Assembly (NCBI RefSeq): GCF_011947285.1
Contig: NZ_JAAOZT010000012.1
Span: 248,001 to 312,000, forward strand
DNA: 64,000 nt
Direction of reading: 5' to 3'
From: Glaciimonas immobilis
GTDB lineage: Bacteria; Pseudomonadota; Gammaproteobacteria; Burkholderiales; Burkholderiaceae_D
In this document: piece after piece, positions 9,447-31,913 of the stretch
Layout: the number at the start of each line of letters is the position of its first letter
Position numbering within the stretch: the stretch's first letter is position 1
Program-made: the position numbers and the translations under genes
The notes under the pieces: model-generated
Told to the model about the DNA's origin: nothing
Database searches by the model: none
The model's input: only the letters and a program-made list of their open reading frames with translations

Positions 9447-9691
9447 TCCTTCGTTTGATGTACTGGAGGCGCAGGCCGCAGAGGTGATGGTCGAATAGTC
9501 TGATTAATTTTTTTAAGTTGCCATTTTAGCAGGAACAACGTCTAAGCTGTTTGTCACCCATTCAGCGGGATTTTACATTTCGGGCCGCCGATGTAATACC
9601 GCTGAAATAAATCCTCTATATGCTCCGCCTAATCAAAAAATTATAATTTTAGCACCTCTTTTTTTAAAAAATCGTTAATCGGAGTAACACC

Positions 9692-10099
9692 ATGCGTAGT
9701 TGGGATGAACCAAAAAAACGGAAAGCACGCGTGGAAATTATTCCAATGATCGACGTGATGATGTTTTTGTTGGTATTTTTTGTACTGATAAGTTTGAACG
9801 TGATCCCGGCGCTAGGCCTCAAAACACATTTACCAAGTTCCAACAGTTCACAAGAACTAAAGCCGCAGAATAAGGCTGTAATAACGCTCGGTTTACACGA
9901 TGCGTTACAAGTTGATGGTATCGCTATCCAGATGGGTGAACTGGTCGCGCGCCTGAACAGTAGCAAGAAGTCCGGCGAACAACTGAACGTCATTGTTAAT
10001 AGTGATCGCGGGGTTGAAGTACAACGGTTGGTAGATGTCATGGATATCTTAAAGCAGAACGGCTTTGAATCGATTTCTATCGCCACCCGCAAGCGTTAG
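9692..10099 (+). CDS. exbD: ExbD-type biopolymer transport protein (first TonB system)
   Basis: This 135-residue protein has one N-terminal membrane helix (about 19-40) and a periplasmic domain. The essential aspartate of ExbD/TolR proteins is present as Asp21 in IPMIDVMMFLLVFF. With ExbB it forms the proton-driven motor that energises TonB. A GGAG ribosome binding site sits 8 bases before the ATG. It is the first gene of an operon continuing with tonB, a receptor, exbB and two exported phosphoesterases. Its paralogue at 31914-32324 belongs to the second TonB locus. Confidence 0.93.
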   Translation: MRSWDEPKKRKARVEIIPMIDVMMFLLVFFVLISLNVIPALGLKTHLPSSNSSQELKPQNKAVITLGLHDALQVDGIAIQMGELVARLNSSKKSGEQLNVIVNSDRGVEVQRLVDVMDILKQNGFESISIATRKR

Positions 10100-10105
10100 C
10101 GTGCC

Positions 10106-10861
10106 ATGATGACGATGCCATTTTTGTTCCGTTTTCGAAATGCTGCAGCAAGCCTTCCGGCAATTTTTTTGCTTGTCATTCTGGTGGTTACAGGCCTGCA
10201 AAAGGCGATCAGCATCGCACCGCATCAGGATGATACGCTCGTAAAGATTACCTTGATGGAACCTGCCGCGGTGCTGGTGCCAAATCTTCCATCGCCCCCG
10301 CCCCCCAAGTCGACGCCGCCGATGAAGGCTAGCGTGGTGCAACCTCCCCCGCAGAATCGTCCGATTCTTCAAGCGGCTGCGCCAACTTCAATCGCCGAGG
10401 TGAGCCCGAGCCACGTGCCGGGTAACCCCACCGCGACGCAAGTCGCCGTGCCCGTGCCGACTCCTGTAGCGCCTGCGCTTACGCCGATACCCGCTACCAG
10501 GCCCAGCGTTGATTTCTCTATTGAGAAAAGTTATTACGCCAAACTGAAGGCAGATGTAGAGCGCCAAAAAACTTATCCACATTCGCGGGAGGCCACCATG
10601 GAGCAGCCGCAAGGCAAGGTGGTGGTATGGCTTGAGGTCAATCGTAATGGAGAGGTCACCGGATCGGGAATTGACACGCCAGCGTCAAGCATGCTGTTGA
10701 ACAGGGCTGCAGAAGGCAGTTTAAGACGGCTAAAACAGGTCGAAAAATTTCCATCGGACGCGTTTAAGGGCATAGACCAAAAACGCTTTATCGTCACATT
10801 TCTTTACAGCACTGATACACACAGGGAACCAAATGATTTACAAGGGGAAACGCATGAATAA
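10106..10861 (+). CDS. tonB: TonB-like energy transducer (first TonB system)
   Basis: This 251-residue protein has the TonB layout. There is an N-terminal membrane anchor at about 12-32, then a proline-rich periplasmic spacer (about 55-135, with PSPPPPKSTPP and VPVPTPVAPALTPIP). The C-terminal TonB domain is at about 150-240 (YAKLKADVERQKTYP...GKVVVWLEVNRNGEV). The TonB-C domain contacts the TonB box of the outer-membrane receptor encoded next. The gene begins 6 bases after exbD. Its 3' end overlaps the start of the receptor gene, consistent with a coupled operon. Several ATGs cluster at 10106-10117; the first is used here. Confidence 0.88.
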   Translation: MMTMPFLFRFRNAAASLPAIFLLVILVVTGLQKAISIAPHQDDTLVKITLMEPAAVLVPNLPSPPPPKSTPPMKASVVQPPPQNRPILQAAAPTSIAEVSPSHVPGNPTATQVAVPVPTPVAPALTPIPATRPSVDFSIEKSYYAKLKADVERQKTYPHSREATMEQPQGKVVVWLEVNRNGEVTGSGIDTPASSMLLNRAAEGSLRRLKQVEKFPSDAFKGIDQKRFIVTFLYSTDTHREPNDLQGETHE

Positions 10862-13169
10862 CAAGGGGCTAAGCGAGAGCAACGGCAAACATAGTAGTCC
10901 TAAAAAACTGCAATATCGCCCTTTATACCTAGCTATGATCGTCGCCGGGCTGGCGGGTTGCACGACCATGGCATTTGCTGCTGATGGCGTAAATCTGGGT
11001 AATATCGATGTCCAAAGCGATGTGCGCAGCGGTGGCCTGATGGTGGATGAAGAAGCGCCTAAGTCGCGTTCGACCATCACTGGTGAAGCTTTAAAACAGA
11101 GGCCCGCAACAAATAATGCGGTACAACTGCTTTCCTCGGTGCCCGGCGTGCATGTAACCTCTAGCGACGCCGCCGGTTTGGCCGACGCCAACTTCACCAT
11201 GCGCGGCTTTAACTCGGATCAGATAGGTTTTACCGTCGATGGTGCGCCAGTTAACGACTCAGGCAACTTCGCTATTTATCCAACCGAGCTGGGCGACATA
11301 GAAAACTTGCAGCAAATTTTTGTTACGCAGGGTTCGACTGATACCGATGCACCGCATATCGGCGCCAGCGGCGGCAATATCGGTTTAGTGACGATGCTGC
11401 CGACCAGGGAATTTGGCGCGTATATTGAGCAGATAGTGGGCAACAACCGACTGAATAAAGAATTTGTCCGTATTAATACCGGTGAGCACGATGTGGGCAT
11501 TGGGAAAATGCGCACCTGGTTTTCAGCGTCGCATACTGGCGAAAATAAATGGCGTGAACCTGGCAGCTTACGCACAAATCGCTTTGAGATGAAATCGGTA
11601 CTGGATATCAATCCGGATAACAGCCTGGATTTCACCTTTAAGTACAACCATCAGGACAATGATCAGTTCAGTAGCTTGACCAAGGCGCAGTATCAGGCCG
11701 GTAATGCCCTTTACACCAATTCACTGCTGGGTAGCAATGGCAAGGTCAATACCAATTACTACCAGTTTCATCAAAATCCTTTCGAGAACTATCTTGCCGT
11801 CCTCAATGGGAAATTTAAACTAGCCGATAATCTGCAACTGATCATTAATCCGTATTTTTGGTATGGCAATGGTGGCGGCTCTAGTGGACAGATCGGCTTC
11901 CCTGCGGGCGCACTAACCACCCAAACTTTACCAAGCGGTTCGCGCACTGACGCTTTTTATAAGATTTCCAATACTGTCACTTATCGTCCTGGCATAACGA
12001 CCATCCTTAAAACCAGTCTGGGTGCAAATGACCTGAGCCTGGGTTACTGGATGGAGCGGTCGCGCCAAATGCAGACTGGTCCCTTCATTCCTATCGATCA
12101 AAGCGGTAGCCCCTCTGATTCCTGGGGACAATCGAACGGGCTGATGGACAAGAACGGCAACATCGTTCAAGCCAGTGGCCGCAATCGCTACACTACGACA
12201 ATTTCACAGAAGCTTTTCTTGCAAGACTCGGTCATTTTCAACGACCAGTTCAGCGTCTTAGCCGGCGTTGCCTACGATCACGTCCGCCGCAGCGGAGATG
12301 ATTACGGTACCTTGGCAAATACCAAAGGTCAGGATGTCAAAGCCAGCAAAGACTATCAGGAGTTTTTGCCGAGTATTGGGCTGAAGTACCAGATGGACCA
12401 ACGTAATAGTACGTTTTATAACCTGACCCACACGTTCCGCGCGCCGCAAAATTATACGTTGTACGATTTCACCGTACTGCCTAACGGTAACGTCACGCGC
12501 AAGGCCGATCAAATGCCGGAGACGTCATGGTCGCAAGAACTTGGCTGGCGTTATACAGCAGAACGGGCAGCTTTTGGCGCGACTCTGTTCTACATCAGTT
12601 TCAGCAATCGCATGGCACAGGTGGTTGATACCGACGGTACCAGCTTTAACTTCAACGTCGGTAACGTCGTGAATAAAGGCTTTGAACTCGAAGCCAGCTA
12701 CGCATTGAGCAAGACTCTTAATGTGCACAGTGCATATAGTTTTACCAGCGCGATTCAACAGGATAACTTCGTTACCAACGGCGTCTCGCTGCCGACACAA
12801 GGTAAGCAGTTCACCAATACGCCACGGCAGATGTTGAGTGCCAGCCTGGGCTATGACGACAAGCGGTTCTTTTCAACTTTGACTGGTAAATACACCAGCA
12901 GTGTCTATGGCGACATGACGAACAACGAGAGGATCGGTGGCTTTACGTTGTTTGATGTGAGCGCTGGTTACCGCTTTGAAAAAATCGGATTCATGAAGGG
13001 CGCAACGATCACGCTGTCCGGTTTGAATTTATTTAACAAACAGTATCTTGCCGCAGTCAATAGCGTCGCCACCAATGCGATAGCCTACGGCAAAGTTGCC
13101 GCGGGTGTGCCTAATTACGTTGTCGGTGGCGCACGCGCCGCAACGATAACATTGGCGGGTTCGTTCTAA
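10854..13169 (+). CDS. TonB-dependent outer-membrane receptor (first TonB system)
   Basis: This 771-residue receptor has a signal sequence ending near AFA-ADG (about residue 42). A plug domain follows (TITGEALKQRPATNNAVQLLSSVPGV, then FTMRGFNSDQIGFTVDGAPV), and then a 22-strand-type barrel ending in a terminal Phe (ATITLAGSF). The ATG at 10854 is preferred over 10833 because AAGGGGAAACGC lies just before it. The receptor lies between tonB and exbB, so it has a dedicated motor. The two exported phosphoesterases encoded downstream suggest a nucleotide- or phosphate-derived ligand, but I cannot read the substrate from the sequence. Confidence 0.9.
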   Translation: MNNKGLSESNGKHSSPKKLQYRPLYLAMIVAGLAGCTTMAFAADGVNLGNIDVQSDVRSGGLMVDEEAPKSRSTITGEALKQRPATNNAVQLLSSVPGVHVTSSDAAGLADANFTMRGFNSDQIGFTVDGAPVNDSGNFAIYPTELGDIENLQQIFVTQGSTDTDAPHIGASGGNIGLVTMLPTREFGAYIEQIVGNNRLNKEFVRINTGEHDVGIGKMRTWFSASHTGENKWREPGSLRTNRFEMKSVLDINPDNSLDFTFKYNHQDNDQFSSLTKAQYQAGNALYTNSLLGSNGKVNTNYYQFHQNPFENYLAVLNGKFKLADNLQLIINPYFWYGNGGGSSGQIGFPAGALTTQTLPSGSRTDAFYKISNTVTYRPGITTILKTSLGANDLSLGYWMERSRQMQTGPFIPIDQSGSPSDSWGQSNGLMDKNGNIVQASGRNRYTTTISQKLFLQDSVIFNDQFSVLAGVAYDHVRRSGDDYGTLANTKGQDVKASKDYQEFLPSIGLKYQMDQRNSTFYNLTHTFRAPQNYTLYDFTVLPNGNVTRKADQMPETSWSQELGWRYTAERAAFGATLFYISFSNRMAQVVDTDGTSFNFNVGNVVNKGFELEASYALSKTLNVHSAYSFTSAIQQDNFVTNGVSLPTQGKQFTNTPRQMLSASLGYDDKRFFSTLTGKYTSSVYGDMTNNERIGGFTLFDVSAGYRFEKIGFMKGATITLSGLNLFNKQYLAAVNSVATNAIAYGKVAAGVPNYVVGGARAATITLAGSF

Positions 13170-13325
13170 ACAGGAGCCATAGTAAATCGTCCTTGCCGCT
13201 ATACGCCTTTGGGCAGCAAGGACGATCCGACCAAACACACAACTGTCTTCATCTGCAAGTTTTATCAAGCTTTCGCTTTTACTCCCTTGTATAACCTCAC
13301 TTCATTTATGTAAAAAGGTTCACGC

Positions 13326-13976
13326 ATGAACATGCAATTATTTCACCAGCTGGCGTTCTATGTGATGTACGCGTGCGCTGCCTTGGCAATCTTCGTGATT
13401 ATCGAGCGCGGATTGTTTTTCAATTACACGCTGCGTCAGGCAATTGGATTAGAAAAAGCGATGACGCATGCGGTACAGCATGTACAAGAATTGCCACCGG
13501 AACTGACCGCGCAGCCTAGTTTACCGCTCACGTTAGTGTCCGATATTTTGGCCGAAAAACATCAATTAACTACCGAAAAAGACCTCGAAGATTTTAGTGA
13601 GTCGGTATACATTGCCAACCGCGGTGCAATCCAGCACCGGCTATGGATTCTCGATACGATCGTCACCGCCGCGCCTCTGCTGGGCCTGCTTGGTACGATC
13701 TTAGGTATCATCGATACCTTTAAAGCGCTGGCCGTGTCCGGCGTGTCAGATCCAGGTCAGGTGTCACAAGGGATCGGTACGGCGCTCTACGCCACAGCGC
13801 TGGGTATCGGCATCGCCGTAGTGGGGATGTTTTTCTTCAATATGTTTCAGGAGCGTATCGAACGTATTAACGATCATTTGAAAGTGTTGATGCTACGCGC
13901 CTGTGTCGGCGGCATCACCGACAAACGTACCCAGATACAGGCTGCGGTGGAGTCCAACAAATTGCATATCGCTTGA
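13326..13976 (+). CDS. exbB: ExbB-type proton channel protein (first TonB system)
   Basis: This 216-residue MotA/TolQ/ExbB-family protein has three membrane segments: about 9-27, about 115-137 and about 155-175. The conserved core LLGLLGTILGIIDTFKAL matches ExbB/TolQ. With ExbD it forms the proton-conducting motor. A weak AAAGG site precedes the ATG. The TGA stop overlaps the next start by one base (TGATG), so the 5'-nucleotidase gene is translationally coupled to it. Separation of exbB from exbD by tonB and a receptor is unusual. Confidence 0.92.
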   Translation: MNMQLFHQLAFYVMYACAALAIFVIIERGLFFNYTLRQAIGLEKAMTHAVQHVQELPPELTAQPSLPLTLVSDILAEKHQLTTEKDLEDFSESVYIANRGAIQHRLWILDTIVTAAPLLGLLGTILGIIDTFKALAVSGVSDPGQVSQGIGTALYATALGIGIAVVGMFFFNMFQERIERINDHLKVLMLRACVGGITDKRTQIQAAVESNKLHIA

Positions 13977-15694
13977 TGAAAGATTTAAATACTATGCGTA
14001 AAAAACCTTTGCCTTGGAAAGTAATTTTTTGTGGCACTGTTTTAATTGCAATCACAGCCTGTAGCGCGTTGCAAAACGCTTCGTCGGGAGCGCCGATTGA
14101 AGTCAATCTGGTCGCTATAAACGATTTACATGGTCATCTTGAATCAGAAACGAAAAGCTTTATCGGTGTTGGCGAACCGGCTGCACGTAAGATAAAAGTT
14201 GGCGGCATCGATACCATCGGCGGTGCCCTGAATGCCTGGCGTGCCGAAGATCGACAATTATTATTCGTGGGTGCTGGCGATATGATTGGCGCCACTCCGG
14301 CACTATCGTCACTATGGGCCGATGAGCCGACTATCTTGGCGCTCAACCAGCTAAAACTACGCGTAAGCTCAGTTGGAAATCACGAATTTGATCAAGGAAG
14401 CGCAGAGTTAATGCGCTATCAACATGGCGGTTGTAAATCAACCCGTCCAGACAAAGCTTGTCGTTTTGAGAGTAATTTTCCAGGCGCACACTTTCCCTAT
14501 CTTGCCGCTAACGTTATCGACAACACCAGCAACCAACCCATACTGGCGGCGTATCACATCGAACAGGCACATGGCATCAAGATCGCTTTCATCGGCGCGG
14601 TTCTGCAAGGTACCGCAGGGATTGTATCCGGTAGCGGTATCGCTAACGTGCATTTTACGGATGAAGCGAATGCTATCAATCGGTGGGTGCCTGAGATTAA
14701 AGCGCAAGGTGTCAGCGCTATCGTAGTCTTGATTCATCAGGGTGGCGAGACGGAGGAGCCATTCGACCAGACCGGTTGTTCGCAGTTGCGCGGTCCGATA
14801 GTCGAGATCGTCAAACATCTGGACCCGGCAATCAAACTGATCATCAGTGCGCATACCCACCATGGCTACACTTGCCAGGTCGATGGACGCACCGTGACAC
14901 AGGGAGAATCCTACGGTCACATGTTGACCCGCATTACATTAACAATCGATCCCAAAATTTCTGATGTATCAAAAAAAATTACTGCTATCACTGCGCACAA
15001 CGTCTTGATGGAAACTAATAAATACGTGCCGGACCCTGCTCTTTCCCTATTTCTACAAAAACTAAAGGCACGCAGCGAAGCGGTATTGGCAAAACCGATT
15101 GCCCACCTTGCGTTGCCACGTATCGAACGCGCGATGAACGATGCTGGAGAGTCGCCATTGGGTGATGTGATCGCCGATTCACAACTGGCGGCGACCCGCG
15201 AATTTGGCGCAAAAATCGCAATGCTTAACCAAAGCAGCATCCGCGAGGATTTGGAAAGCGGTGCCAATGGCAGTAACTATGCGCAGCTTGCGATCACTAT
15301 GCCATTTGGTAACACGCTGATCGTGGAATCGCTCAGCGGCGCTCAGCTAATAGCCTTGCTTGAGCAACAAGGCTGGGGTCACAATATGCTGCAAATTTCG
15401 GATGGTCTGCAGTATCGCTGGGACCTGAAACGACCCGTCGGACACCGTGTACTACCAGGCAGCGTGACGCTCAATGGGATTGCTATAGACACGCATCAGC
15501 AATACCGGGTCAGCCTCAATAGCTTCATTGCCCAGGGCGGCGACGGGTTTAGTGTGCTAACCCAAGGCACCGAACGTCTGGATACCGGCATCAATGATCT
15601 GGATGCGCTCAGCAGGTATTTGATTGCACGCGAACGCGATGGACATCCGGCAGGACTGCCACAAGCAGCCAAGCGGATTGTGCGCGTGCACTGA
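13976..15694 (+). CDS. Exported lipoprotein 5'-nucleotidase / metallophosphatase
   Basis: This bifunctional-type metallophosphatase/5'-nucleotidase (572 residues) should release phosphate and nucleosides from nucleotides outside the cytoplasm. The metallophosphatase motifs are all visible: NDLHGHLE, GAGDMIGATP, SVGNHEFDQG and SAHTHHGYT. The C-terminal nucleotide-binding domain has GESPLGDVIADSQL, LNQSSIREDL and SLNSFIAQGGDGFSVL. The N-terminus is a lipoprotein signal (IAITAC, lipid-modified Cys near residue 29), so the enzyme is membrane-anchored on the exported side. The start overlaps the exbB stop; an ATG six codons later would also fit. Its own stop overlaps the start of the PLD-like gene, again TGATG. 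Confidence 0.88.
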   Translation: MKDLNTMRKKPLPWKVIFCGTVLIAITACSALQNASSGAPIEVNLVAINDLHGHLESETKSFIGVGEPAARKIKVGGIDTIGGALNAWRAEDRQLLFVGAGDMIGATPALSSLWADEPTILALNQLKLRVSSVGNHEFDQGSAELMRYQHGGCKSTRPDKACRFESNFPGAHFPYLAANVIDNTSNQPILAAYHIEQAHGIKIAFIGAVLQGTAGIVSGSGIANVHFTDEANAINRWVPEIKAQGVSAIVVLIHQGGETEEPFDQTGCSQLRGPIVEIVKHLDPAIKLIISAHTHHGYTCQVDGRTVTQGESYGHMLTRITLTIDPKISDVSKKITAITAHNVLMETNKYVPDPALSLFLQKLKARSEAVLAKPIAHLALPRIERAMNDAGESPLGDVIADSQLAATREFGAKIAMLNQSSIREDLESGANGSNYAQLAITMPFGNTLIVESLSGAQLIALLEQQGWGHNMLQISDGLQYRWDLKRPVGHRVLPGSVTLNGIAIDTHQQYRVSLNSFIAQGGDGFSVLTQGTERLDTGINDLDALSRYLIARERDGHPAGLPQAAKRIVRVH

Positions 15695-16941
15695 TGCTTT
15701 CCAATAAACTCGAGAAATCCAGCATGTTTAAGATGATCCTTACGCTCCAAATCTTGCTGGGATGCGCCGTGCAGGCACATGCTGAATTCGGCATTCCCGG
15801 CTATGAACTGGTGCATACGGTACCGCTCGAAACCACACTGACTACCCCTGATTTACGTGAACCGCTACAAGTCTGGCGTGAGATGTTTGATGCAGCCCGG
15901 GAGGAGATTGACCTGGGTCAGTTTTATGTTGCAGGTAAATCTGGCGAGGCGTTTGATCAAGTCATCGAACGGCTGGATGCTGCCGGTCGGCGCGGGGTAA
16001 AAATTCGGTTTTTAATGGAGGAAAAGGGGAAATTTGCGTCAGATATCGCAACGATAGAACAACTCCAACGCATCCCTAACCTGACATTTCGGTATCTTAA
16101 CTATTCCAAACTGACTGGCAACGGCATCATCCATGCCAAATATATGTTGGTCGATGGCACCGCTGCATACGTCGGAAGTCAAAACTTTGACTGGCGCGCT
16201 TTTGCGCACATTCATGAAACAGGATTACGGATCACCGACAGCGTCGTCGTCAAGCAATTACAACAAATTTTTGAATTTGACTGGCATGCGCAAGCGCTGA
16301 TTGCGCAAGGCCTGCCCGTATTGCCCAGCAATCAGGCCCTGGTACTCGCAAACGAGGACCAGGCAGCTTATCTGGTCGCCAGTCCCAATGCCTTCAACCC
16401 GGCCGGCGTGGGAGACTCAGAAACAGAATTACCTAAACTACTGGCAGCGGCGACATCCGAAGTAAAAGTCCAGCTGCTCGATTATGCACCGCTTAGTTAT
16501 GGCCCTAATCATACACATTCTTACTACGCGGTGATAGATAACGCGATACGCGCTGCACTAGCGCGCGGAGTCAAGATTCAGTTGATGGTTTCTCACTGGA
16601 ATACCGGTAAACCGGCGATAGATTATTTGAAAAGTCTGGCCTTGCTGCCCGGCATGGAAATAAAAATCGTGACGTTACCGCAAGCCAGCACCGGATTTAT
16701 TCCATTTGCCCGCGTCATTCATAGCAAGATAATGTCGATCGATGGACAGGTCGCCTGGATCGGCACAAGTAACTGGAGCGGCGGCTACATGGATAAGTCA
16801 CGCAACCTTGAAATCATTTTACGAAATAAAAAAATGGCAAAAAGGATTGCCGATTTGCATCAGCAAACGTGGGACTCGATTTACGCCCAGCCGATTGATG
16901 TAATGAAGAATTATCCGCCGCCAAAAAAAGGAACAAATTAA
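15694..16941 (+). CDS. Exported PLD3/PLD4-like phospholipase D-superfamily protein
   Basis: This 415-residue protein has a signal peptide (cut near AVQAHA-EFG) and two HKD motifs: HAKYMLVDGTAAYVGSQNFD at about 147-166 and HSKIMSIDGQVAWIGTSNWSG at about 347-367. Text such as the first-motif DWRA, the second-motif GTSNWSGGY and the inter-motif ARGVKIQLMVSHW resembles animal PLD3/PLD4 and vaccinia K4. Those proteins act as 5' exonucleases on single-stranded nucleic acid. A phospholipase role is the alternative. The start codon overlaps the 5'-nucleotidase stop; the ATG at 15724 would give a shorter signal peptide. It is the last gene of the TonB operon, which suggests it feeds the 5'-nucleotidase and receptor. 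Confidence 0.82.
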   Translation: MLSNKLEKSSMFKMILTLQILLGCAVQAHAEFGIPGYELVHTVPLETTLTTPDLREPLQVWREMFDAAREEIDLGQFYVAGKSGEAFDQVIERLDAAGRRGVKIRFLMEEKGKFASDIATIEQLQRIPNLTFRYLNYSKLTGNGIIHAKYMLVDGTAAYVGSQNFDWRAFAHIHETGLRITDSVVVKQLQQIFEFDWHAQALIAQGLPVLPSNQALVLANEDQAAYLVASPNAFNPAGVGDSETELPKLLAAATSEVKVQLLDYAPLSYGPNHTHSYYAVIDNAIRAALARGVKIQLMVSHWNTGKPAIDYLKSLALLPGMEIKIVTLPQASTGFIPFARVIHSKIMSIDGQVAWIGTSNWSGGYMDKSRNLEIILRNKKMAKRIADLHQQTWDSIYAQPIDVMKNYPPPKKGTN

Positions 16942-17068: not shown

Positions 17069-18307
17069 TCAACCAGCAAGTGTCGGATGACTGTTCTGCC
17101 ACGCAACAAAGGTTTGCCATTGCTGCTGCGTTGTATGCGTCATTTCTACCGACGCATCCAGCATCTCTTCCATCCAGTCATCCCCTTGTGCGAAGGCGAT
17201 CAGCGCATCTGCATTAGCTGCGCCTGATCGCCCGGATGCGCGAAGTTGATCCCATGCCAGATTGCGGCCCATCGTGGATACGACCTCCTTCAGGCGGTCG
17301 AGCTTTTTGCCCCAGTCGCCGATCGCCACCCGATCTTCTGAGGGTTGTAAGCCTTTAAGGATGCACGACAATCCAGCCAGTTTTACCGGCTGTAAAAATG
17401 CGTGATCAACCGCTTGCATCCGTTTTTGAATCGCCACTACACGGCTCGCTTCATCCGCCCAAACCGGCTGTTTGATCCCTAGACGGACGAGATGAGGTGC
17501 CAGCGCGGACGGCTTGGCCTCTTTAATGTCGAGCAGATAGTTGCCGTCCGGAGAGCCCTTTCCATTGACCAGCACGACAAAACGTTCCACCCCAAGGCTA
17601 CCGGTACCCGCAATACGGCGTGCCACATCGAGTACCTGAAAAAAATTCGGGTTCTGTTGGGTGGAGGCATAACGATCCATAAACTTGATGACCGTCTTTT
17701 TTTGGGTATCAGAGGCAGGCAGCGCCTTTACGCCGTCTATTTTCAAGCTACGTCGCTGGCCCTTGGAAATTGTCCTCTTATTCAAGAACGCAGCACGCTC
17801 ACGACCCTGCAAGGCGGTTAACAGCGTATTGACAAGCCCACTGGAGGTTTCCCGTTCGACCCAGAGCGGCTTGCCGGTAATGAGGGCACTACGGTAAGCA
17901 TCCAGACAGCACTGGCTAACCGCCAACGCTTCGGCACGGGTCGCACGCAGCGCATCAGCCCCGCACTGGATGCTGGTCAGCAGTCTTACCATATCCCACG
18001 TAGCGGGAGCCAAAGCTGCCTCGTCGTAGTCATTGATATCGAAATAAACCAGCCGGTTGTCGCCCTTGTAGCTGCCGAAGTTCTCAAAGTGCAAATCGCC
18101 GCAACTCCATGCCAGAGGCGCGTCCCGAAATTGTGGCGTATCCGGCAATGCATCGTAGAACAAATGGCAAGTACCGCGCAGGAAGATGAACGCGTTCTGG
18201 GCCATCTTGGTGTACTTCATCGCTAGTCGCTCCGGCTCACGGCCTGCATTGTTGCGCTGGATGGCGTCAATAATGATGGAAGAAGACTTGGCATTCTGCT
18301 TGGGCAT
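17069..18307 (-). CDS. DUF2252 family protein, kinase-like fold
   Basis: This 412-residue protein matches DUF2252: MKYTKMAQNAFIFLRGTCHLFY near the start, then CGDLHFENFG and YFDINDYDEAALAPATWDMVRL. The last two motifs resemble the catalytic and metal-binding loops of aminoglycoside phosphotransferase-type kinases (HGDLHxxN and D-x-D). A phosphotransfer activity is possible but has not been shown for the family to my knowledge. The start is uncertain: the ATG at 18307 lacks a clear ribosome binding site, and a TTG lies at 18322. The gene stands alone, convergent with the TonB/nucleotidase operon. Confidence 0.75.
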   Translation of the reverse strand: MPKQNAKSSSIIIDAIQRNNAGREPERLAMKYTKMAQNAFIFLRGTCHLFYDALPDTPQFRDAPLAWSCGDLHFENFGSYKGDNRLVYFDINDYDEAALAPATWDMVRLLTSIQCGADALRATRAEALAVSQCCLDAYRSALITGKPLWVERETSSGLVNTLLTALQGRERAAFLNKRTISKGQRRSLKIDGVKALPASDTQKKTVIKFMDRYASTQQNPNFFQVLDVARRIAGTGSLGVERFVVLVNGKGSPDGNYLLDIKEAKPSALAPHLVRLGIKQPVWADEASRVVAIQKRMQAVDHAFLQPVKLAGLSCILKGLQPSEDRVAIGDWGKKLDRLKEVVSTMGRNLAWDQLRASGRSGAANADALIAFAQGDDWMEEMLDASVEMTHTTQQQWQTFVAWQNSHPTLAG

Positions 18308-18461
18308 TGGGCATCCGATCAATGGCTGGGAACAGCCATCGTATCGAAATTACGGTTGTTTTGCTAGTTCGCACTGAGCGGAGGGGGTTGAACTGACTGC
18401 CTGGATCAAAACACCATCGAAGCCGGGCTGCCACGATTTAGAGCAGACACCGACACATAAT

Positions 18462-19280
18462 TTAATCGATCAAGCTATCACCATCGTAAAACGGATATGG
18501 CCCGTCAAATTCACCGATATAGGCGGTGTGACTTATCAGGCCGGCATCTGCATCCAATACATGCAACTGAAACGCCGGTGGCTCCATAACAAAGCAAGAT
18601 TCAGCCTGCGGACTTAGATCCAGCGCCACCTGATGCGCAACCCCGGGGCAAGTTGAGGCGATGCTTCCGCCAAAGCGTACCTGAATAGCGCGGTGCAAGT
18701 GTCCGCACAGAATACGCTCTACCTGTGGATGCCGTTGCACCACGGCGGCCAACACCTGCGGTTCTGCTAAGCCAATTTTGTCCATATGGCCGATGCCGGT
18801 ATGAAACGGCGGATGATGCATGATGATGACGGTCGGCTTGTGCAGCTGCGCTGCCAGCACCTGATCAAGCCACACCAGGCTGTCGGCGGCCAAAGCGCCG
18901 CAGCTGGATTGCGGAATGACAGTGTCCAGCGCCACTATGCGCAGCGGATAATCATCAATCACGTACTCTATCCGCTCTTTGCTTTGCTGAAGATATGTGT
19001 GTTCGGGAAAGGCGTCTCTTAAATTACTGCGATCATCATGATTACCCGGAATCAGGTAAAACGGCATCTCCAGCGATTGCAGCAAATGGCGTAGGAATAC
19101 GTATTCTTCCGCCAGACCAAAATCTACAAGATCGCCAGTAATCACCATCGCATCGGGTCGCGGCCTGAGGGCGTTTACCTGCGCGACACAGCGCCGCAAA
19201 CTTTCTGCGGTATCGACGATGCGATACGATTTTTTGCCATGCGCCTTGATATGCAAATCGGAAATTTGACACAGTATCAT
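18462..19280 (-). CDS. Calcineurin-like metallophosphodiesterase
   Basis: This 272-residue cytoplasmic-type metallophosphoesterase carries all family motifs: ISDLHIKAHG, ITGDLVDFG, IPGNHDDRSNL, IIMHHPPFHTG and CGHLHRAIQ. The set resembles CpdA-type (3',5'-cAMP) and glycerophosphodiester phosphodiesterases. The start overlaps the end of the ABC ATPase gene by 4 bases. It is thus the last gene of the LacI-regulated importer operon and most likely acts on the imported compound. That makes a phosphodiester substrate plausible, but this is an inference from context. Confidence 0.85.
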   Translation of the reverse strand: MILCQISDLHIKAHGKKSYRIVDTAESLRRCVAQVNALRPRPDAMVITGDLVDFGLAEEYVFLRHLLQSLEMPFYLIPGNHDDRSNLRDAFPEHTYLQQSKERIEYVIDDYPLRIVALDTVIPQSSCGALAADSLVWLDQVLAAQLHKPTVIIMHHPPFHTGIGHMDKIGLAEPQVLAAVVQRHPQVERILCGHLHRAIQVRFGGSIASTCPGVAHQVALDLSPQAESCFVMEPPAFQLHVLDADAGLISHTAYIGEFDGPYPFYDGDSLID

Positions 19281-20338
19281 GCCGCCACCTCATCCTGAAA
19301 ATGCAACAATGCGTGTTCCGGGACGCGCAGCGCGATACGTTGTCCCACTTGCCAGGATGCGCTGCGGCCAGTATCAACGACCACCGCTTGCCCCGCACCA
19401 ACGTTGACGTGCAGGCGGGTGCGGTCACCCAAAAAGAAGGTTGAGAGAATCTCTCCGTGCATGTTCGCAGTGCCCATGCCATCGGCCACGACTTCAACGT
19501 CTTCCGGCCGGAACATCAGCGTGGCCTGACTGCCGGCGGCCGAGACGGCGTACGGTAGTTGTCCTCCGGAAAATCGTACCTGACCCCCCCCTGCGACGCC
19601 CGTCACGCGATTCATGGTGCCGATGAAATCGGCGACAAAATGGCTGACGGGACGATAGTAAATATCTTGCGGCGTGCCAATCTGCGCGATCTTGCCACGC
19701 TCCATGACCACCACGCGGTCACCCAATGCCATCGCCTCGCTCTGATCATGCGTCACATAAATCGTCGTAATGCCGAGCGTTCGCAGCAATTGATTAAGAT
19801 CGGCGCGCAGCGTTTCACGCAGCTTGGCATCCAGCGCCGTTAACGGCTCGTCCAACAATAATACCCGCGGCTCAACCGCCAGCGCACGCGCCAGAGCGAC
19901 ACGCTGCTTCTGACCGCCCGATAGCTGGTCGATACGGCGCTGGCCTAGTCCTTGCAGGTGCACCATCTCCAGCAAAGCATCGATTTTTTTGAGGCGCTGG
20001 GCGGCTGGAATTTTGCGGATCTTCAGGCCATAGGCAATGTTTTCTCCCACCGTCATGTTGGGAAACAACGCGTAATTTTGAAACACCATTCCAACGCCAC
20101 GCTTTTCTATCGGCAATCCGGTAACGTCTTCACCGTCGAACAAAACCTGCCCGCCAGCATCAGGAAATTCGAGACCGGCAATCAGGCGCAGAGTCGTCGT
20201 TTTTCCGCAGCCGGAGGGGCCCAGCAGCACCACGGTTTCACCGGGACGGATCGCCAACTCTATCGGCTGCAGCGCCTGCGCGCCGTTGGCGAAAGTTTTT
20301 CCGCACTGAATCAATTGGATGGAAACAGCATTCTTCAT
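19277..20338 (-). CDS. ABC importer ATP-binding protein (PotA/FbpC/PhnT type)
   Basis: This 353-residue ATPase has Walker A GPSGCGKTT, the Q-loop in VFQNYALFP, signature LSGGQKQRVALARAL, Walker B VLLLDEPLTALD and the H-loop TIYVTHDQSEA. A C-terminal TOBE-type domain (about 240-350) follows, as in polyamine, iron and 2-aminoethylphosphonate importers. The ATG at 20338 overlaps the permease stop by 4 bases and is preferred over upstream in-frame codons. It energises the two permeases encoded just upstream. Confidence 0.9.
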   Translation of the reverse strand: MKNAVSIQLIQCGKTFANGAQALQPIELAIRPGETVVLLGPSGCGKTTTLRLIAGLEFPDAGGQVLFDGEDVTGLPIEKRGVGMVFQNYALFPNMTVGENIAYGLKIRKIPAAQRLKKIDALLEMVHLQGLGQRRIDQLSGGQKQRVALARALAVEPRVLLLDEPLTALDAKLRETLRADLNQLLRTLGITTIYVTHDQSEAMALGDRVVVMERGKIAQIGTPQDIYYRPVSHFVADFIGTMNRVTGVAGGGQVRFSGGQLPYAVSAAGSQATLMFRPEDVEVVADGMGTANMHGEILSTFFLGDRTRLHVNVGAGQAVVVDTGRSASWQVGQRIALRVPEHALLHFQDEVAA

Positions 20339-21138
20339 AAACGGACTCTTGAGCGTGTGGTGTGCGTGACCCATTGCATGGCGATCAGCAACGGGATGAT
20401 CATCAGAAAGAAAATCAGCGTGTAAGCAGACCCGACTTCCAGCCGCATTGAGGCATAGCTATCGGCCAGTCCAACCGGCAGAGTCATAGTCAGCGGCGTG
20501 TGCAGCATCCAGGTGATGTTGAACTCGCCTATCGACAAGGTCACTACCATCAATGCGCCAGCAAGGATGCCAGAAAACACGTTGGGAATCACGATGCCAA
20601 AAAACCGCTGTAGTGGACCTGCACCAAGGCTGGCAGCGGCCTCCTCCAACACAGGCAGTTGCGCCGACTGCATGACCGCCAGCACCGGACGCACCATAAA
20701 CGGTAGCGTGAACATCACATGGCCGACCAGGATAAACAGCAAACTGCTGCGAAATTCACGATACTGGCCATAAGCCATGATCAACGCCAGTGCCGTCGCC
20801 AGTCCTGGCACCGCCACAGGCATCATCAGCAATTCTTCGATTGCCCGCGCCAGACGGCTGTTACCGCCCTTGTGACGTGCCAACATATAGGCCAGCGGCA
20901 CGCCCACCAGCGTGGTGACTACCAGACAAGCTAATGCGATAGCTATCGAGCGCCAGATGGTCACCTGATAGGTATCCCAAACCTGCACTATCCAGCGCGT
21001 AGTAAAACCGCTGGACCAGCCGATGAAAAAATTATCAGTAATCCCCGCCAGCATCGACAGGATGATCGGAATGATCAGGAAGGCGCATACCAGCAGTGTC
21101 AATCCAAGCTGGACATAAAAACGGAATGATTTATGCAT
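20335..21138 (-). CDS. ABC importer inner-membrane permease, second subunit
   Basis: This 267-residue permease has about six membrane segments and a binding-protein-dependent transport loop EEAAASLGAGPLQRFFGIVIPNV, which contacts the ATPase. It resembles PotC/PhnV-type permeases. It follows the first permease by 13 bases and overlaps the ATPase gene by 4. Confidence 0.88.
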   Translation of the reverse strand: MHKSFRFYVQLGLTLLVCAFLIIPIILSMLAGITDNFFIGWSSGFTTRWIVQVWDTYQVTIWRSIAIALACLVVTTLVGVPLAYMLARHKGGNSRLARAIEELLMMPVAVPGLATALALIMAYGQYREFRSSLLFILVGHVMFTLPFMVRPVLAVMQSAQLPVLEEAAASLGAGPLQRFFGIVIPNVFSGILAGALMVVTLSIGEFNITWMLHTPLTMTLPVGLADSYASMRLEVGSAYTLIFFLMIIPLLIAMQWVTHTTRSRVRL

Positions 21139-21151
21139 ATTCTCGCCTGTC

Positions 21152-22000
21152 CTAAGCCGCTGCAGCGGCTGTATTACCCGACCATGAACGGGCTAATGCA
21201 AGGACCAGCCAGGTCATCGCTCCCAGTACGATTGATAGTGCTGCGGCCATCGCAAAATTCGCGTAACTGGTAAATTCGTTATAGATCACCATCGGTAAAA
21301 CATCAATATTGGTGGCTAATGTGAAAGCCGTGCCGAAAGCGCCGACACTGGTGGCAAAGCAGATGGCTCCGGATGATATCAATGCCGGCGTCAAGGCGGG
21401 CAACACAACATTAGAAAATACCTGCAACGGATTTGCGCCTAGAGAGCGGGCTGCTTCTTCCAGGGCAGGGTCAAGTTTCTCTGCGGCGGCCATAACAGTG
21501 AGGATCACGCGGGGAATCGAAAAATACAGATATCCGAGGAATAAGCCGCCGAGAGAATAAGCAAAAACCCAGGCATCGCCGAACAACCAGTTGCTTACAC
21601 CACCAATCAAGCCTTGACGCCCTGCCAGCATAATCACCATAAAACCGACCACCACGCCGGGAAAAGCCAACGGGAAGGTCAGCATGGCAAGCAACAGCGA
21701 CTTTCCGGCAAAGCGGTTACGTTGCAAGAACAGGCCGACCAATACCGAAATCAACAACGTCGTTAAGGTCACCAATGCCGACAGCAGCAATGTTGCGATC
21801 AGACTCATCAAATAACGGTGATTGGTGACCACTGCCAAATAGGCGGCTGCCCCGGTGGGACCGCTGGCACCAACTGCCAGCAGACGGAGCATCGGTAGCA
21901 ACCAGAAGGCCAGGAATAACGTCATACCGGGCAACGCAAACCAGAGGTAGCGCTGGCGCTGAGACCGTGGTTTTGGTAGTTTAGGCAGCAAATTTGTCAC
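21152..22000 (-). CDS. ABC importer inner-membrane permease, first subunit
   Basis: This 282-residue permease has about six membrane segments. Its ATPase-contact loop LDPALEEAARSLGANPLQVFSNVVLPAL is close to the standard EAA motif. It resembles PotB/PhnU-type subunits. Its start overlaps the end of the solute-binding protein gene by 4 bases. Confidence 0.88.
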   Translation of the reverse strand: MTNLLPKLPKPRSQRQRYLWFALPGMTLFLAFWLLPMLRLLAVGASGPTGAAAYLAVVTNHRYLMSLIATLLLSALVTLTTLLISVLVGLFLQRNRFAGKSLLLAMLTFPLAFPGVVVGFMVIMLAGRQGLIGGVSNWLFGDAWVFAYSLGGLFLGYLYFSIPRVILTVMAAAEKLDPALEEAARSLGANPLQVFSNVVLPALTPALISSGAICFATSVGAFGTAFTLATNIDVLPMVIYNEFTSYANFAMAAALSIVLGAMTWLVLALARSWSGNTAAAAA

Positions 22001-23004
22001 CGAACTTCGGCCTGATAGCGTTCACTGAATGCCCGCTGCCCCTCAGCCATCTTGCTGTAATCGATCGATTTGGCACGCGCGTATTCTGCCGCGGGCAAAA
22101 AGTGCGCCTGCGCTTCTTTCGACATGGCGGAAGCACGTACCGGCCGCAGATAGGCATTGGCCCAGATAGCCTGTCCTTCATTAGACAGCAAAAAGTCCAG
22201 CACCTTCTTCGCGTTTGCCGGATTCGGGCCATTTTTTACGAGACTGACGACGTAGGGCACGCTCAACGTTCCTTCGCTTGGGATTACGAAAGCGACATTG
22301 GCTTTATCCTTGTATTTGGCCCGGTAAGCATCAAAATCGTAGCCAAACAAAATTGGGATTTCGCCCGATAGCAGACGCGCATACGAGGTCTGCTTAGGAA
22401 CGATGGGCTGGTTCTTTTGCAGGGCCTTCAAGAAGTTGATGCCCGGATTAAAGTTCTCTAGCGTACCGCCAAGAGCCTGGTTAATTGCCACCGCACCGAC
22501 ATAACCAACAAAGGCGCTGGCCGGATCAAGGTAACCGATCAGGCCTTTATATTCAGGCTTCAGCAAATCCTGCCAGGAACGTGGCACTGGCTTACCCTTG
22601 AGCGCATCGACGTTTACCATCAAACCCATGGTGCCGGAATGGATAGTGAACCAGTAACCGTCCGGGTCTTTCAGTTCATTTGGAATTTCGTTCCAGCCGA
22701 CTGGCTTATAAGGCGTAGTCACCTCTCTCTTTTTCGCTTCAATGCCGAAGGTCACGCCGACGTAGGTAAAATCGGCAACAGGGCTGGCCTTTTCAGCGAT
22801 GATCTGGGACAGCGACTGGCCACTGTTCTTGTTATCAGGCGGCACCGTAATGCCGGTCTTGTCCTTGATGGCCTTAATTTGCGTTGCCCAGTCTGCCCAC
22901 TCGGGCGGACAGTTGTAACAAATCGCATTTTGCGCGACGGCATGAGTGGATACGGCGAGAGCAAGGGCGGCGACCATCGCCTGGAAAACACGTGCTAAAC
23001 GCAT
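21997..23004 (-). CDS. ABC importer periplasmic solute-binding protein
   Basis: This 335-residue protein has a signal peptide (LALAVSTHAVAQNA, cut near residue 24). Its extracellular solute-binding fold resembles the family that includes iron-, polyamine-, thiamine- and 2-aminoethylphosphonate-binding proteins. An unusual CYNCP lies directly after the signal peptide; the pair of cysteines might form a disulfide. The gene lies 26 bases after the LacI gene and is the first importer gene. The substrate cannot be told from sequence; the linked metallophosphodiesterase favours an organophosphate. Confidence 0.82.
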   Translation of the reverse strand: MRLARVFQAMVAALALAVSTHAVAQNAICYNCPPEWADWATQIKAIKDKTGITVPPDNKNSGQSLSQIIAEKASPVADFTYVGVTFGIEAKKREVTTPYKPVGWNEIPNELKDPDGYWFTIHSGTMGLMVNVDALKGKPVPRSWQDLLKPEYKGLIGYLDPASAFVGYVGAVAINQALGGTLENFNPGINFLKALQKNQPIVPKQTSYARLLSGEIPILFGYDFDAYRAKYKDKANVAFVIPSEGTLSVPYVVSLVKNGPNPANAKKVLDFLLSNEGQAIWANAYLRPVRASAMSKEAQAHFLPAAEYARAKSIDYSKMAEGQRAFSERYQAEVR

Positions 23005-23030
23005 GCTGCTTCCTTTCTAGGTTGGCTGAA

Positions 23031-24110
23031 TCAAGGGAGAGTAGTAAAGAGTTGGATAACCGGCTGAACAAACGGCTTAACAAACGGCTGAACAAATGGT
23101 TTGACCGACCCGCCAAGGCGGACGGTGTGGGGCAAAATGTGTGTGGCTACAGAGGTCGGATGCCCTTCTTGTTGTTCTTCAATCGCGGTCACCAGCGTGC
23201 GCAGTGCAAGTGCGCCGATCTGCTCGGATGGTTGTTCGACGCTGCTTAACATCGGATCCATCAATTCGCCGAGCGGAATGCCGTCGAAGCCCATGACCGA
23301 GACATCATCCGGCACGCGTAAGCCTAGTACGCGCAAATCGCGCATCACGCTTAAAGCCAGCAGATCATTGGAACAAAACAGGGCGCTCGGCCGTTGCGAC
23401 GGATCACGGAAAGTTTGCAGGTAGTCAAAGTCGAGTGATGTGTAGGTATGGCGCGCCACTTCAATCGGTGCCAGCGGCTCCAGACCGTGCTGTTGCATGG
23501 CCTGGAGATAACCGTGATAGCGCTGCAAGGCACGATCGGATGCATGAAAGTGTCCTGCCAGCATCTGAATTTGGCGGTGGCCAAGCTCGATCAACTTTGA
23601 CACTGCATCATAGGCAGCCAGTTGATTGTCGACCGACACCGACGGCCGCACACTTTGTTGCGGCTGGTTGTACACCAGCACGTAGGGAATTTTTTCATGG
23701 TCAAGTAAATCCAGCGTAGTGCTGGCTTCGGCATCGGCGACCGTAAGAATGACGCCATCGACACGATGCGCTAATAGTAGTTCGACTGCCGCGGCTTCAT
23801 CTTGCTGGCGGTATTCCGTTGCAGTGACCATGACCGAATATTCGCGCTCGCGTGCAACGGTTTCCAGACCCTGCAGGCACTGCGCAAATACCGTATTGGA
23901 AAACGTCGGCAATACCACTCCCACCGTGCGCGAGCGCCCGGCACGTAGGTTACGCCCGCTAAAATTCGGTCGAAACGCGAGCGTCTTCATCGCCTGATAG
24001 ACCTTGCTGGCAGTATCGATGCCGACCGAATCCGGCTGGTTCATCAGACGCGATACGGTGGCGATCGACACGCCTGCTTGTAGAGCAACTTGCTTGATGG
24101 ATGGACGCAC
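23031..24110 (-). CDS. LacI-family transcriptional regulator
   Basis: This regulator has a classical LacI head, RPSIKQVALQAGVSIATVSRLMN, and a hinge with RPNFSGRNLRAGRS. A sugar-binding-protein-like effector domain follows (GVVLPTFSNTVFAQCLQGLE). I place the start at the GTG at 24110, giving MRPSIKQVA, the usual LacI N-terminus. The upstream ATG at 24152 would put a perfect palindromic operator inside the coding sequence. The C-terminus ends in an odd tail, VKPFVQPFVKPFVQPVIQLF, encoded by 12-base tandem repeats. It is the first gene of the importer operon and probably represses both itself and the importer. Confidence 0.85.
   Translation of the reverse strand: MRPSIKQVALQAGVSIATVSRLMNQPDSVGIDTASKVYQAMKTLAFRPNFSGRNLRAGRSRTVGVVLPTFSNTVFAQCLQGLETVAREREYSVMVTATEYRQQDEAAAVELLLAHRVDGVILTVADAEASTTLDLLDHEKIPYVLVYNQPQQSVRPSVSVDNQLAAYDAVSKLIELGHRQIQMLAGHFHASDRALQRYHGYLQAMQQHGLEPLAPIEVARHTYTSLDFDYLQTFRDPSQRPSALFCSNDLLALSVMRDLRVLGLRVPDDVSVMGFDGIPLGELMDPMLSSVEQPSEQIGALALRTLVTAIEEQQEGHPTSVATHILPHTVRLGGSVKPFVQPFVKPFVQPVIQLFTTLP
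23055..23102. repeat. 12-base tandem repeats in the 3' end of the LacI gene
   Basis: Four units related to AACAAACGGCTG occur back to back; the first, GATAACCGGCTG, is the most diverged. They are in frame and encode alternating KPFV and QPFV-like blocks in the C-terminal tail of the regulator. Change in copy number would lengthen or shorten the tail without a frameshift. Confidence 0.8.
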
Positions 24111-24120
24111 AATACAACCC

Positions 24121-24142
24121 AAGATGTAAACGTTTACATCTT
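24121..24142. promoter_or_regulatory. Palindromic LacI-type operator
   Basis: A perfect 22-base palindrome has the core GATGTAAACGTTTACATC, extended by AA and TT. The TGTAAACG/CGTTTACA half-sites with a central CG are characteristic of LacI/GalR operators. It lies just upstream of the proposed GTG start of the LacI gene, so autorepression and control of the whole importer operon are likely. Confidence 0.85.
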
Positions 24143-24236
24143 GCCGAGACATTGTTACCTGCTCATGACTGAACGATTAAAATAGAACTAATCGGCATCT
24201 CTATAAGGATCGTGGGACGGCAGCGGCGTCTACAGT

Positions 24237-26630: not shown

Positions 26631-27167
26631 TTTTTTCCCTTTTTAACGTCATGTTCTTTGGTTATGCCGAACTGAATGTGGCGGTGATGATAGTGCTGAT
26701 AGTGGTAAAAGTAACGCGAGTTACTTCAACACCATTGCCCATTACCCAGGTGCTCTGATGCAACAGAAAATAGCACTCACGCTTGAGACGGTGGCGCGCC
26801 AGTATATGCATAGGAATGGCGATAGCTTCCATTAAATTAATAAAAATAGCTGATAGTCCGGATCAATGAGAATGTGCGACTGAAAGTTGAAATTGCGTTT
26901 TTACAAAATGTTGTTCGAGGATTTTTCTGCGGTCAGGAATGCCGTAAAAACTTCCCTTTTTACCAGCATAAATAAGCGAGGGCGCGTGATCTTAGTACTG
27001 AATACTTATCCAATACTTAGCCAGCGATGATCGTGTTTGATTGCAACGGAATGTATAGCATTGTAATGCTCTGGTAACAAAACGCGTAGATATTGAGCAC
27101 TCTTTGCAATCCCCCACGTCCGGCGGGTTGCTGTAATAGTGATATCGAATTCGTTAAGGAATCTATA
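26631..27167. other. Divergent intergenic region before the second TonB locus
   Basis: This 537-base region must carry promoters for the barrel gene (minus) and the second TonB operon (plus). The frame open from 27093 into the receptor gene is judged an upstream extension. Apart from the inverted repeat at 26709-26726, I see no strong site and no clear Fur box. Confidence 0.5.
26709..26726. repeat. Perfect inverted repeat, possible operator
   Basis: AAGTAAC-gcga-GTTACTT is an 18-base perfect inverted repeat. It lies about 80 bases upstream of the barrel gene ATG and about 440 bases before the receptor gene. The size and position fit a repressor site for the barrel gene; the regulator is unknown. 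Confidence 0.4.
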
Positions 27168-30089: not shown

Positions 30090-30131
30090 ACTCTATCCTC
30101 CGACTATTTACACATTTGAATTGGCACAATA

Positions 30132-31175
30132 ATGAAGAACTTCACACTTAAAACGATGATCACGGTGACGCTATTGCCGATCGCACTGCTATCAACTGTT
30201 CACGCATCAACCCAGCATCAGTACGAGATAGCCTCTAAATATCCGCTTAGTGGTGTCGAAGGGTGGGACTATATCGCCCTCGATAGCAAGCGCGGCCATC
30301 TGTTTATCAGCCGCTCGGATCATGTCCAGGTTATGGATACAGCAACGGGAAAAATGGTCGGCAGTATCGTTGATACTGCGGGCGTTCACGGTGTTGCGTT
30401 TGCGCAGGATCTCAATCTTGGCTTTACCAGCAATGGCAAGTCCGACACCGTCACCGTGTTTGAACTCGATAGCTTGAAGGTAGTTGACACCATCAAGACC
30501 ACCGGTCATGGTCCCGATGCCATTTTGTACAATCCGGCACTCAAACGAATCTACACTTTTAACGGTCATGGTCAAAACGTGACGGTGATCGATGCAATGA
30601 CACGCAAGGTGATTGCCACCATCGCCGTTGCTGGCCGTCCGGAATTTGCAGTGAATGATAGTCAGGGCCATATCTTTTTTAATATCGAAGATAAGAACGA
30701 GATGGCGATGATCGATACGCAATCCTCAACCATCGTCAAGCGCTGGTCTTTGGCACCGTGCGAAGAGCCAAGCGGCTTAGCGATAGATGAAGCACAGCAT
30801 CGCCTGTTTGCTGTATGTAGTAACAAGAAAATGATGGTAGTGGACGCAGTCTCGGGAAAAATCGTTACGACCGTAGCAGTCGGCGATGGTCCGGACGCCG
30901 TCGCGTTTGATCCACATTCAAAACTGATATTTGTTTCTAACGGCAGCGGAGCGCTGACTGTGGTGCATCAGGAAACGCCAGATCGTTACACCGTGAAGAC
31001 AAATCTGCCAACCCAAAAAGGGGCGAAAACATTAGCGCTTAACCCAGATACGCATACGGTGTATCTGGTCGGCGCCCAATTCAGCCCGGCACCAGCAGTC
31101 ACCGCAAATGCGCCGCACCCGCGTCCTTCCGTGATCGCTGACACAGTCAACGTCATGGTGGTCTCACCCAAATAA
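30132..31175 (+). CDS. YncE-family beta-propeller protein, exported
   Basis: This 347-residue protein has a signal peptide (ALLSTVHAS). It then shows repeated YVTN/YncE blade sequences such as VQVMDTATGKMVGSIVD, VTVIDAMTRKVIATIAVAGRP and MMVVDAVSGKIVTTVAVGDGPDAVAF. The fold should be a seven-bladed propeller in the periplasm. In the family, E. coli YncE is periplasmic with no settled function. Being 42 bases after a receptor and before exbBD-tonB, it may bind the imported ligand or assist the receptor. Confidence 0.85.
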   Translation: MKNFTLKTMITVTLLPIALLSTVHASTQHQYEIASKYPLSGVEGWDYIALDSKRGHLFISRSDHVQVMDTATGKMVGSIVDTAGVHGVAFAQDLNLGFTSNGKSDTVTVFELDSLKVVDTIKTTGHGPDAILYNPALKRIYTFNGHGQNVTVIDAMTRKVIATIAVAGRPEFAVNDSQGHIFFNIEDKNEMAMIDTQSSTIVKRWSLAPCEEPSGLAIDEAQHRLFAVCSNKKMMVVDAVSGKIVTTVAVGDGPDAVAFDPHSKLIFVSNGSGALTVVHQETPDRYTVKTNLPTQKGAKTLALNPDTHTVYLVGAQFSPAPAVTANAPHPRPSVIADTVNVMVVSPK

Positions 31176-31243
31176 TTCGGAAAATGTGAATGTGACAGCA
31201 TCTACATTCACCAAACGTACACCGTTAGAATGAGGAATATAAA

Positions 31244-31894: not shown

Positions 31895-31913
31895 ACGGAG
31901 AATCAACGATTTT

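Follow-up and report, generated by a model that had tools for sequence, protein, structure and literature searches.

An operon that encodes a TonB-dependent receptor together with its own Ton motor and two exported phosphoesterases raises the question of what is carried across the outer membrane. Such an operon, comprising exbD, tonB, a receptor gene, exbB and the genes of a lipoprotein of the 5'-nucleotidase family (NT5) and a PLD3/4-like phosphodiesterase (PLD), lies at positions 9692-16941 of the window, by which we mean the whole 64,000-nucleotide stretch of Glaciimonas immobilis DNA that was analysed (contig NZ_JAAOZT010000012.1, positions 248,001 to 312,000); the host genome is 4.9 Mb. 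To our knowledge, the passage of food nucleic acids over the Gram-negative outer membrane is mostly unexplained beyond passive pores and the competence machinery. On the basis of sequence comparison, we consider with good confidence that the locus is a nutrient-scavenging system for nucleic acids, a reading that is favoured over phospholipid or siderophore uptake because of the conserved enzymes and of the nuclease and purine-breakdown neighbours and Pho boxes in relatives. In the proposed mechanism, the receptor would take fragments of single-stranded DNA or RNA (oligonucleotides) across the outer membrane by the proton motive force, the periplasmic PLD3/4-like enzyme (S1/P1 nuclease elsewhere) would cut them to mononucleotides, and NT5 (CpdB elsewhere) would strip the phosphate from these, after which phosphate and nucleosides would enter the cytoplasm via inner-membrane carriers. 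The substrate, direction of transport, site of digestion and induction in the window's host are what we infer from these comparisons.

The family survey covered 145 genomes, and the receptor was scored as adjacent to NT5 when at most 3 kb separated them and to PLD when at most 6 kb did. The receptor clade was found in 36 of these genomes, and one or both enzymes adjoined the receptor in 32 of the 36 (NT5 only, 16; both enzymes, 8; PLD only, 8; neither, 4). A sequence-only reading of this DNA had named a lack of conservation between the two enzymes and the receptor as a result that would speak against it, and the survey revealed the contrary. From the side of PLD, 31 of the 33 genes in the survey adjoined NT5 and/or the receptor: 15 lay beside NT5 alone, 8 beside the clade receptor alone and 8 beside the two together, with 2 beside neither. 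Of 398 genomes across the phylum, 11 had PLD and 18 matched the receptor profile. Since the row is kept in many genera, the arrangement goes beyond chance.

We also compared 38 PLD loci from a genome scan with PLD, whose partners were called by BLAST with the operon and partner proteins. The clade receptor was present in 18 loci, and a TonB receptor of the Oar-like type, about 1140 aa long, filled the clade slot before NT5/PLD in 8 (L048, L053, L054, L057, L058, L059, L061 and L069); in one further locus (L050), the contig ended just before NT5. The order exbD-tonB-receptor-exbB-PLD was found in all eight loci of Collimonas, Glaciimonas and Herbaspirillum (L039-L046), three of which contained NT5, and six gammaproteobacterial operons (Pantoea formicae L071, L089-L092 and the Chimaeribacter arupi plasmid L100) contained the five genes without NT5. 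A gene for a PQQ-dependent glucose dehydrogenase adjoins the operon on the Chimaeribacter plasmid. As evident from these loci, the constant set is smaller than six genes: the association first read from the window was conserved, whereas NT5 or PLD was often missing, and exbB, exbD and tonB were not beside the receptor in Duganella-type loci.

The neighbours of the receptor in relatives carry the argument further. In Duganella, Rugamonas and Janthinobacterium, the usual order was xdhB, xdhC, guanine deaminase, adenosine deaminase, receptor, NT5, PLD and S1/P1 nuclease. Among the 38 PLD loci, NT5 was present in 21, S1/P1 in 16 and xdhB in 14; adenosine deaminase, guanine deaminase and xdhC each occurred in 17. 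A further 20 receptor loci, which may have species in common with the first set, contained NT5 (16), S1/P1 (10), PLD (3), adenosine deaminase (7) and guanine deaminase (6). Guanine deaminase and XdhC scored above curated cut-offs and S1/P1 above that of Pfam. CpdB filled the enzyme slot on a Methylosinus plasmid, where the row consists of exbD, a hypothetical gene in the position of tonB, the gene of a receptor with 29% identity, exbB and a gene annotated as CpdB. In L143, a CpdB above its cut-off lay 1.7 kb upstream of exbD. With these S1/P1, deaminase, xdh and CpdB neighbours, several unrelated nucleotide and nucleic-acid enzymes thus recur beside one receptor clade, and they support the chain first proposed from the window's letters, in which nucleic acid is broken down to nucleotides and then to nucleosides and phosphate by enzymes that accompany a TonB receptor. 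A sugar- or nucleoside-like ABC permease recurs downstream in L049, L052 and similar loci with its model below cut-off, and its labelling as nucleoside-type was not used as evidence. Two flanking open reading frames (ORFs) picked as possible partners elsewhere proved to be an asparagine synthase and an AMP-binding enzyme.

We next consider where digestion would take place. A doubtful alternative, which nevertheless keeps appreciable weight, is that the nucleic acid is digested outside the cell by surface-exposed or secreted enzymes and that the receptor imports a small product (nucleotides or nucleosides). The lipobox of NT5 (ITAC|S, read by eye) is without Asp at +2, so an outer-membrane, and perhaps surface, placement of the lipoprotein is possible. 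PLD, S1/P1 and adenosine deaminase, however, have plain Sec-type signals (read by eye in PLD, in 3/3 S1/P1 and in 3/3 adenosine deaminase proteins), and such signals deliver a protein to the periplasm if no other secretion system takes over. According to excerpts of PMC8289736, nucleotides are charged and cross membranes poorly, which would suit an importer of nucleotides. Nucleosides have the passive outer-membrane channel Tsx, so TonB import of nucleosides would be wasteful. PLD and NT5 are thus probably located in the periplasm, which makes the import of oligonucleotides likelier than that of finished products. The sequence-only reading had let the receptor import a product of the two enzymes; its tie between a receptor with Ton genes and exported phosphoesterases stood, and the import of a finished product became the weaker part.

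NT5 was compared with UshA, CD73 and CpdB. NT5 matched the Pfam models 5_nucleotid_C (107.1 bits) and Metallophos (31 bits) and shares with these enzymes the two-domain family, the metal ligands and the substrate Arg, Phe and Asp; unlike them, it is a lipoprotein encoded in a TonB operon. Seven of the metal-ligand positions were found in 41 of 41 homologues and H294 in 40, with one gap, and the metal, Arg, Phe and Asp positions as a whole were retained in 40-41 of the 41. The second base-stacking Phe of CD73 is Leu in NT5. All matches of NT5 to named NCBIfam models were under cut-off, and NAD nucleotidase and UDP-sugar hydrolase belong to its superfamily. It is accordingly conceivable, though improbable, that another nucleotide-containing compound (NAD, a nucleotide sugar or a cobalamin-like compound) is taken up and trimmed by NT5 and PLD; relatives carry S1/P1 nuclease and purine deaminases, which speaks for nucleic acids instead.

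PLD was found to have the motifs of the PLD3/4-like family, namely HxK(x)4D/E twice, accompanied by GSxN and GTSN. Its motif residues H147, K149, D154, N164, H343, K345, D350 and N360 were kept in 55 of 55 homologues (56 were found and one short row was dropped). The positions of the PLD3 nucleotide contacts were also retained: Y78 and D166 were present in 55 of 55, and position F338 was Phe in 49 and Tyr in 6. Overall, PLD shares with the human 5' exonucleases PLD3 and PLD4 the family, both catalytic motifs and the nucleotide-contact positions, although the human enzymes are lysosomal and the second motif of PLD3 is HKE, compared with HKD in the window PLD. Cleavage of the PLD3 type leaves 3'-phosphates; such products would suit CpdB and would demand a 3'-nucleotidase activity of NT5. 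The thymidine contacts of human PLD3 are Y126, D220 and Y411, as given in excerpts of PMC10783504.

The closest solved relative of PLD was SpPLD from Serratia plymuthica AS9 (7e0m, E 7.9e-156, alignment covering residues 29-413), followed by human PLD3 (2.7e-34) and PLD4. Because 7e0m is labelled a phospholipase D both in its deposition and in its paper (PMC8004604), and a phosphodiesterase and a 2-aminoethylphosphonate-type ABC importer lie nearby in the window, we weighed the scavenging of phospholipids or glycerophosphodiesters, in which PLD would act as a phospholipase D and the receptor would carry head groups or pieces of lipid. The excerpts of the structure paper give no activity, describe the loops as nuclease-like and ask whether nucleic acid is cut, and SpPLD stands there as a lone enzyme of open substrate (PMC8004604); excerpts of PMC11653685 describe nuclease activity and no phospholipase activity for PLD3. 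With nucleotide and purine enzymes as the partners in relatives, phospholipid scavenging appears quite improbable.

The receptor has a plug and a barrel, and ExbB and ExbD, identified by Pfam domains like the receptor, are encoded in the same operon; in the window TonB, whose TonB_C match stayed under cut-off, a hydrophobic stretch at the N-terminus and a linker rich in proline were read by eye. The host genome has 11 ExbD matches, so further Ton systems exist there. An AlphaFold2 model of the receptor, built from a 15-row alignment, had a mean pLDDT of 57.6.

The upstream regions suggest that PhoB probably induces the locus when phosphate is scarce; the sequence evidence is good in Duganella-type loci and tentative in the window. 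We surveyed the sequences upstream of 27 receptors in loci of the NT5 or S1/P1 layout, with a box threshold of at least 11/14, and 17 of these related, not independent, rows had a Pho box. Sixteen boxes were on the gene's strand, two of them about 240 nt upstream, and six reached at least 12. As a background, 7 of 540 random 250-bp stretches of the same loci reached 11, as did 15 of 322 ORF upstreams of these loci on the gene's strand, some of which were the receptors' own. In a control with pstS upstreams, a box of at least 11/14 was found in 8 of 14 loci, including the host genome, with none in L177; a plainly wrong ORF had been chosen in 5 of the 14 (L168, L170, L178, L179 and L180). The phosphate-selective porin family, sought as a further control, was not found in the 15 genomes searched. 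In G014 (L098, 13770-15020), a PstS-like binding protein, below model cut-off, is encoded upstream of the operon. The window and the Collimonas operons share an upstream element in which the TGTAA and GA.A positions do not vary among the 11 upstreams compared. A strict search of 5 genomes found this element once at the operon in each and one more time in G014; being nearly confined to the operon, it marks no regulon in its strict form.

Iron regulation had been named by the sequence-only reading as evidence that would count against it. No convincing Fur box was present among 30 upstream stretches, where the best reached 13/19 (L071 and L090) and the lowest shuffle p was 0.03 (L039); upstream of the window operon, the best site reached 11/19 with a shuffle p of 0.93.

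Several observations weigh against nucleic-acid scavenging by a conserved receptor-enzyme set. The best named model of the receptor was TIGR01783, a siderophore-receptor subfamily, at 168.8 bits against a cut-off of 223.5 that it did not reach, and its solved sequence relatives were mostly siderophore receptors (FhuA, FoxA and CntO), matched over part of the barrel. Four receptor genomes had neither enzyme nearby (G008, G065, G132 and G086, the last on a short contig). Among the 38 PLD loci, no receptor was detected in 11 (L047, L062-L067 and L072-L075); in three of these, the upstream sequence spans about 1 kb at most. The same-genus genome G077 retains the operon without PLD, which is absent between NT5 and DUF2252 on a contig of 123,406 bases (L097; G077:C2:78000-97900) that is possibly a plasmid, and in G096 PLD is only a fragment. 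The alphaproteobacterial receptor relatives L126-L137 were without any of the partners in the BLAST partner set. The Pho-like site of the window agreed with the Pho box at 10 of 14 positions, no better than shuffled sequence (p 0.35), and 35 places in the window score equal or higher. No S1/P1, deaminase or xdh gene was found beside the window operon, and the host genome has no S1/P1; as NT5 is also its sole PF02872 protein, PLD and NT5 would there do the work that S1/P1 shares elsewhere. Finally, close to the Methylosinus operon, the other strand encodes an iron-type ABC transporter. That the operon serves the uptake of a siderophore or other chelate, with its companions present by chance or regulation, would fit this transporter and the likeness of the receptor to siderophore receptors, but is very unlikely given the conserved phosphoesterases, the lack of a good Fur box and the Pho boxes found in relatives instead.

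The phylogenetic trees revealed that the parts of the operon have different relatives. The window ExbB and ExbD were 81-90% identical to those of Collimonas-type operons, and the receptor about 34%. The receptor (support 99) and the TonB C-terminus (100/100) grouped with gammaproteobacterial operons; PLD grouped with Oxalobacteraceae (97), and ExbB fell on the Oxalobacteraceae side (88/83, not starred). ExbD was too short to resolve. In topology tests, for which the groups were named only after the trees were seen, holding the receptor with its family was rejected (p-AU 2.4e-34), as was holding PLD with the gammaproteobacteria (p-AU 0.0014). It thus seems that the tonB-receptor pair was replaced within a retained operon, which would fit the matching of TonB and receptor and the pressure on a surface protein.

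The features of the operon are collected in Table 1. All six ORFs of the sequence-only reading were located on the forward strand, five with clear Pfam domains and tonB with a TonB_C match just short of its cut-off. Its near-abutting junctions were found at exbD-tonB (6 nt), at tonB-receptor (an overlap with either receptor start, the second being an in-frame ATG) and at the TGATG overlaps of exbB/NT5 and NT5/PLD, but not between the receptor and exbB, where a gap of 156 nt (13170-13325) contains a strong hairpin that is a possible mRNA processing or stability element. In G077, this gap has a partly repeated arm.

Table 1. Positions of the operon genes and associated elements in the window.
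Feature	Position	Strand	Properties
Conserved upstream element, degenerate Pho-box-like, tentative	9591..9608	+	ATGTAATACCGCTGAAAT, about 100 nt before exbD
exbD	9692..10099	+	135 aa; Pfam ExbD 104.9 bits
tonB	10106..10861	+	251 aa; TonB_C 22.4 bits, under 24.6 cut-off; groups with gammaproteobacterial operon TonBs
TonB-dependent receptor	10833..13169	+	778 aa; likelier start 10854; Pfam barrel 167.4, plug 56.6 bits
Hairpin, receptor-exbB gap	13186..13226	+	11-bp stem, without T run; z -2.48 over 160-nt stretch
exbB	13326..13976	+	216 aa; Pfam MotA_ExbB 89.8 bits
NT5, lipoprotein 5'-nucleotidase family	13976..15694	+	ORF from TTG 13973, likelier ATG 13976
PLD, exported PLD3/4-like phosphodiesterase	15694..16941	+	415 aa; Pfam PLDc_2 127.9 bits

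Immediately downstream and convergent with PLD, a DUF2252 protein is encoded at 17069-18322, and such a gene adjoins the operon in G077 too. The minus strand of 18462-24152 encodes an SpdA-like phosphodiesterase, a LacI-type regulator and an ABC importer that resembles 2-aminoethylphosphonate systems, although its matches to their models stayed below cut-off. About 10 kb off, a second TonB-type group (27093-32324) contains a large receptor that exceeds the cut-off of TIGR01782, along with a beta-propeller protein, an exbB-like ORF (31244-31894) and exbD (31914-32324).

Polysaccharide utilisation loci are TonB receptor loci that carry exported enzymes which break the receptor's substrate. The window operon is similar in that an energised receptor is encoded with substrate-degrading exported enzymes; in contrast, its enzymes are of the phosphoesterase and nuclease kind and the Ton motor genes lie within the operon. 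Loci for the degradation of extracellular DNA in the marine sediment bacteria Ca. Izemoplasmatales and Shewanella likewise bring together, within common genome regions, nucleases, nucleotidases, nucleoside or phosphate import, purine deaminases and xanthine dehydrogenase, but the word TonB is absent from their description and no PLD3/4-like enzyme is named in the excerpts of it (PMC8289736). ExbB and phospholipase are not mentioned in the excerpts of a paper on Pantoea phosphate genes (PMC12889132), and a search of open-access literature, mostly without full text, found no description of the set of receptor, NT5, PLD and Ton genes. We tentatively propose, with a little less than even expectation, that a TonB receptor actively imports nucleic-acid fragments as food, apart from natural transformation, and feeds periplasmic nucleases and a nucleotidase, with the receptor type (two families) and the enzyme type (PLD3/4-like, S1/P1, CpdB, NT5) exchangeable in a conserved layout.

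The locus names a testable set of receptor, motor and enzymes in the culturable soil genera Collimonas, Duganella, Janthinobacterium and Glaciimonas. It also hints at what a bacterial PLD family may act on; the closest solved member of this family has a structure and, in the excerpts of its description, no reported activity. Much of the phosphorus in soil is organic, nucleic acids included, and a PhoB-linked importer would therefore matter for phosphorus cycling.

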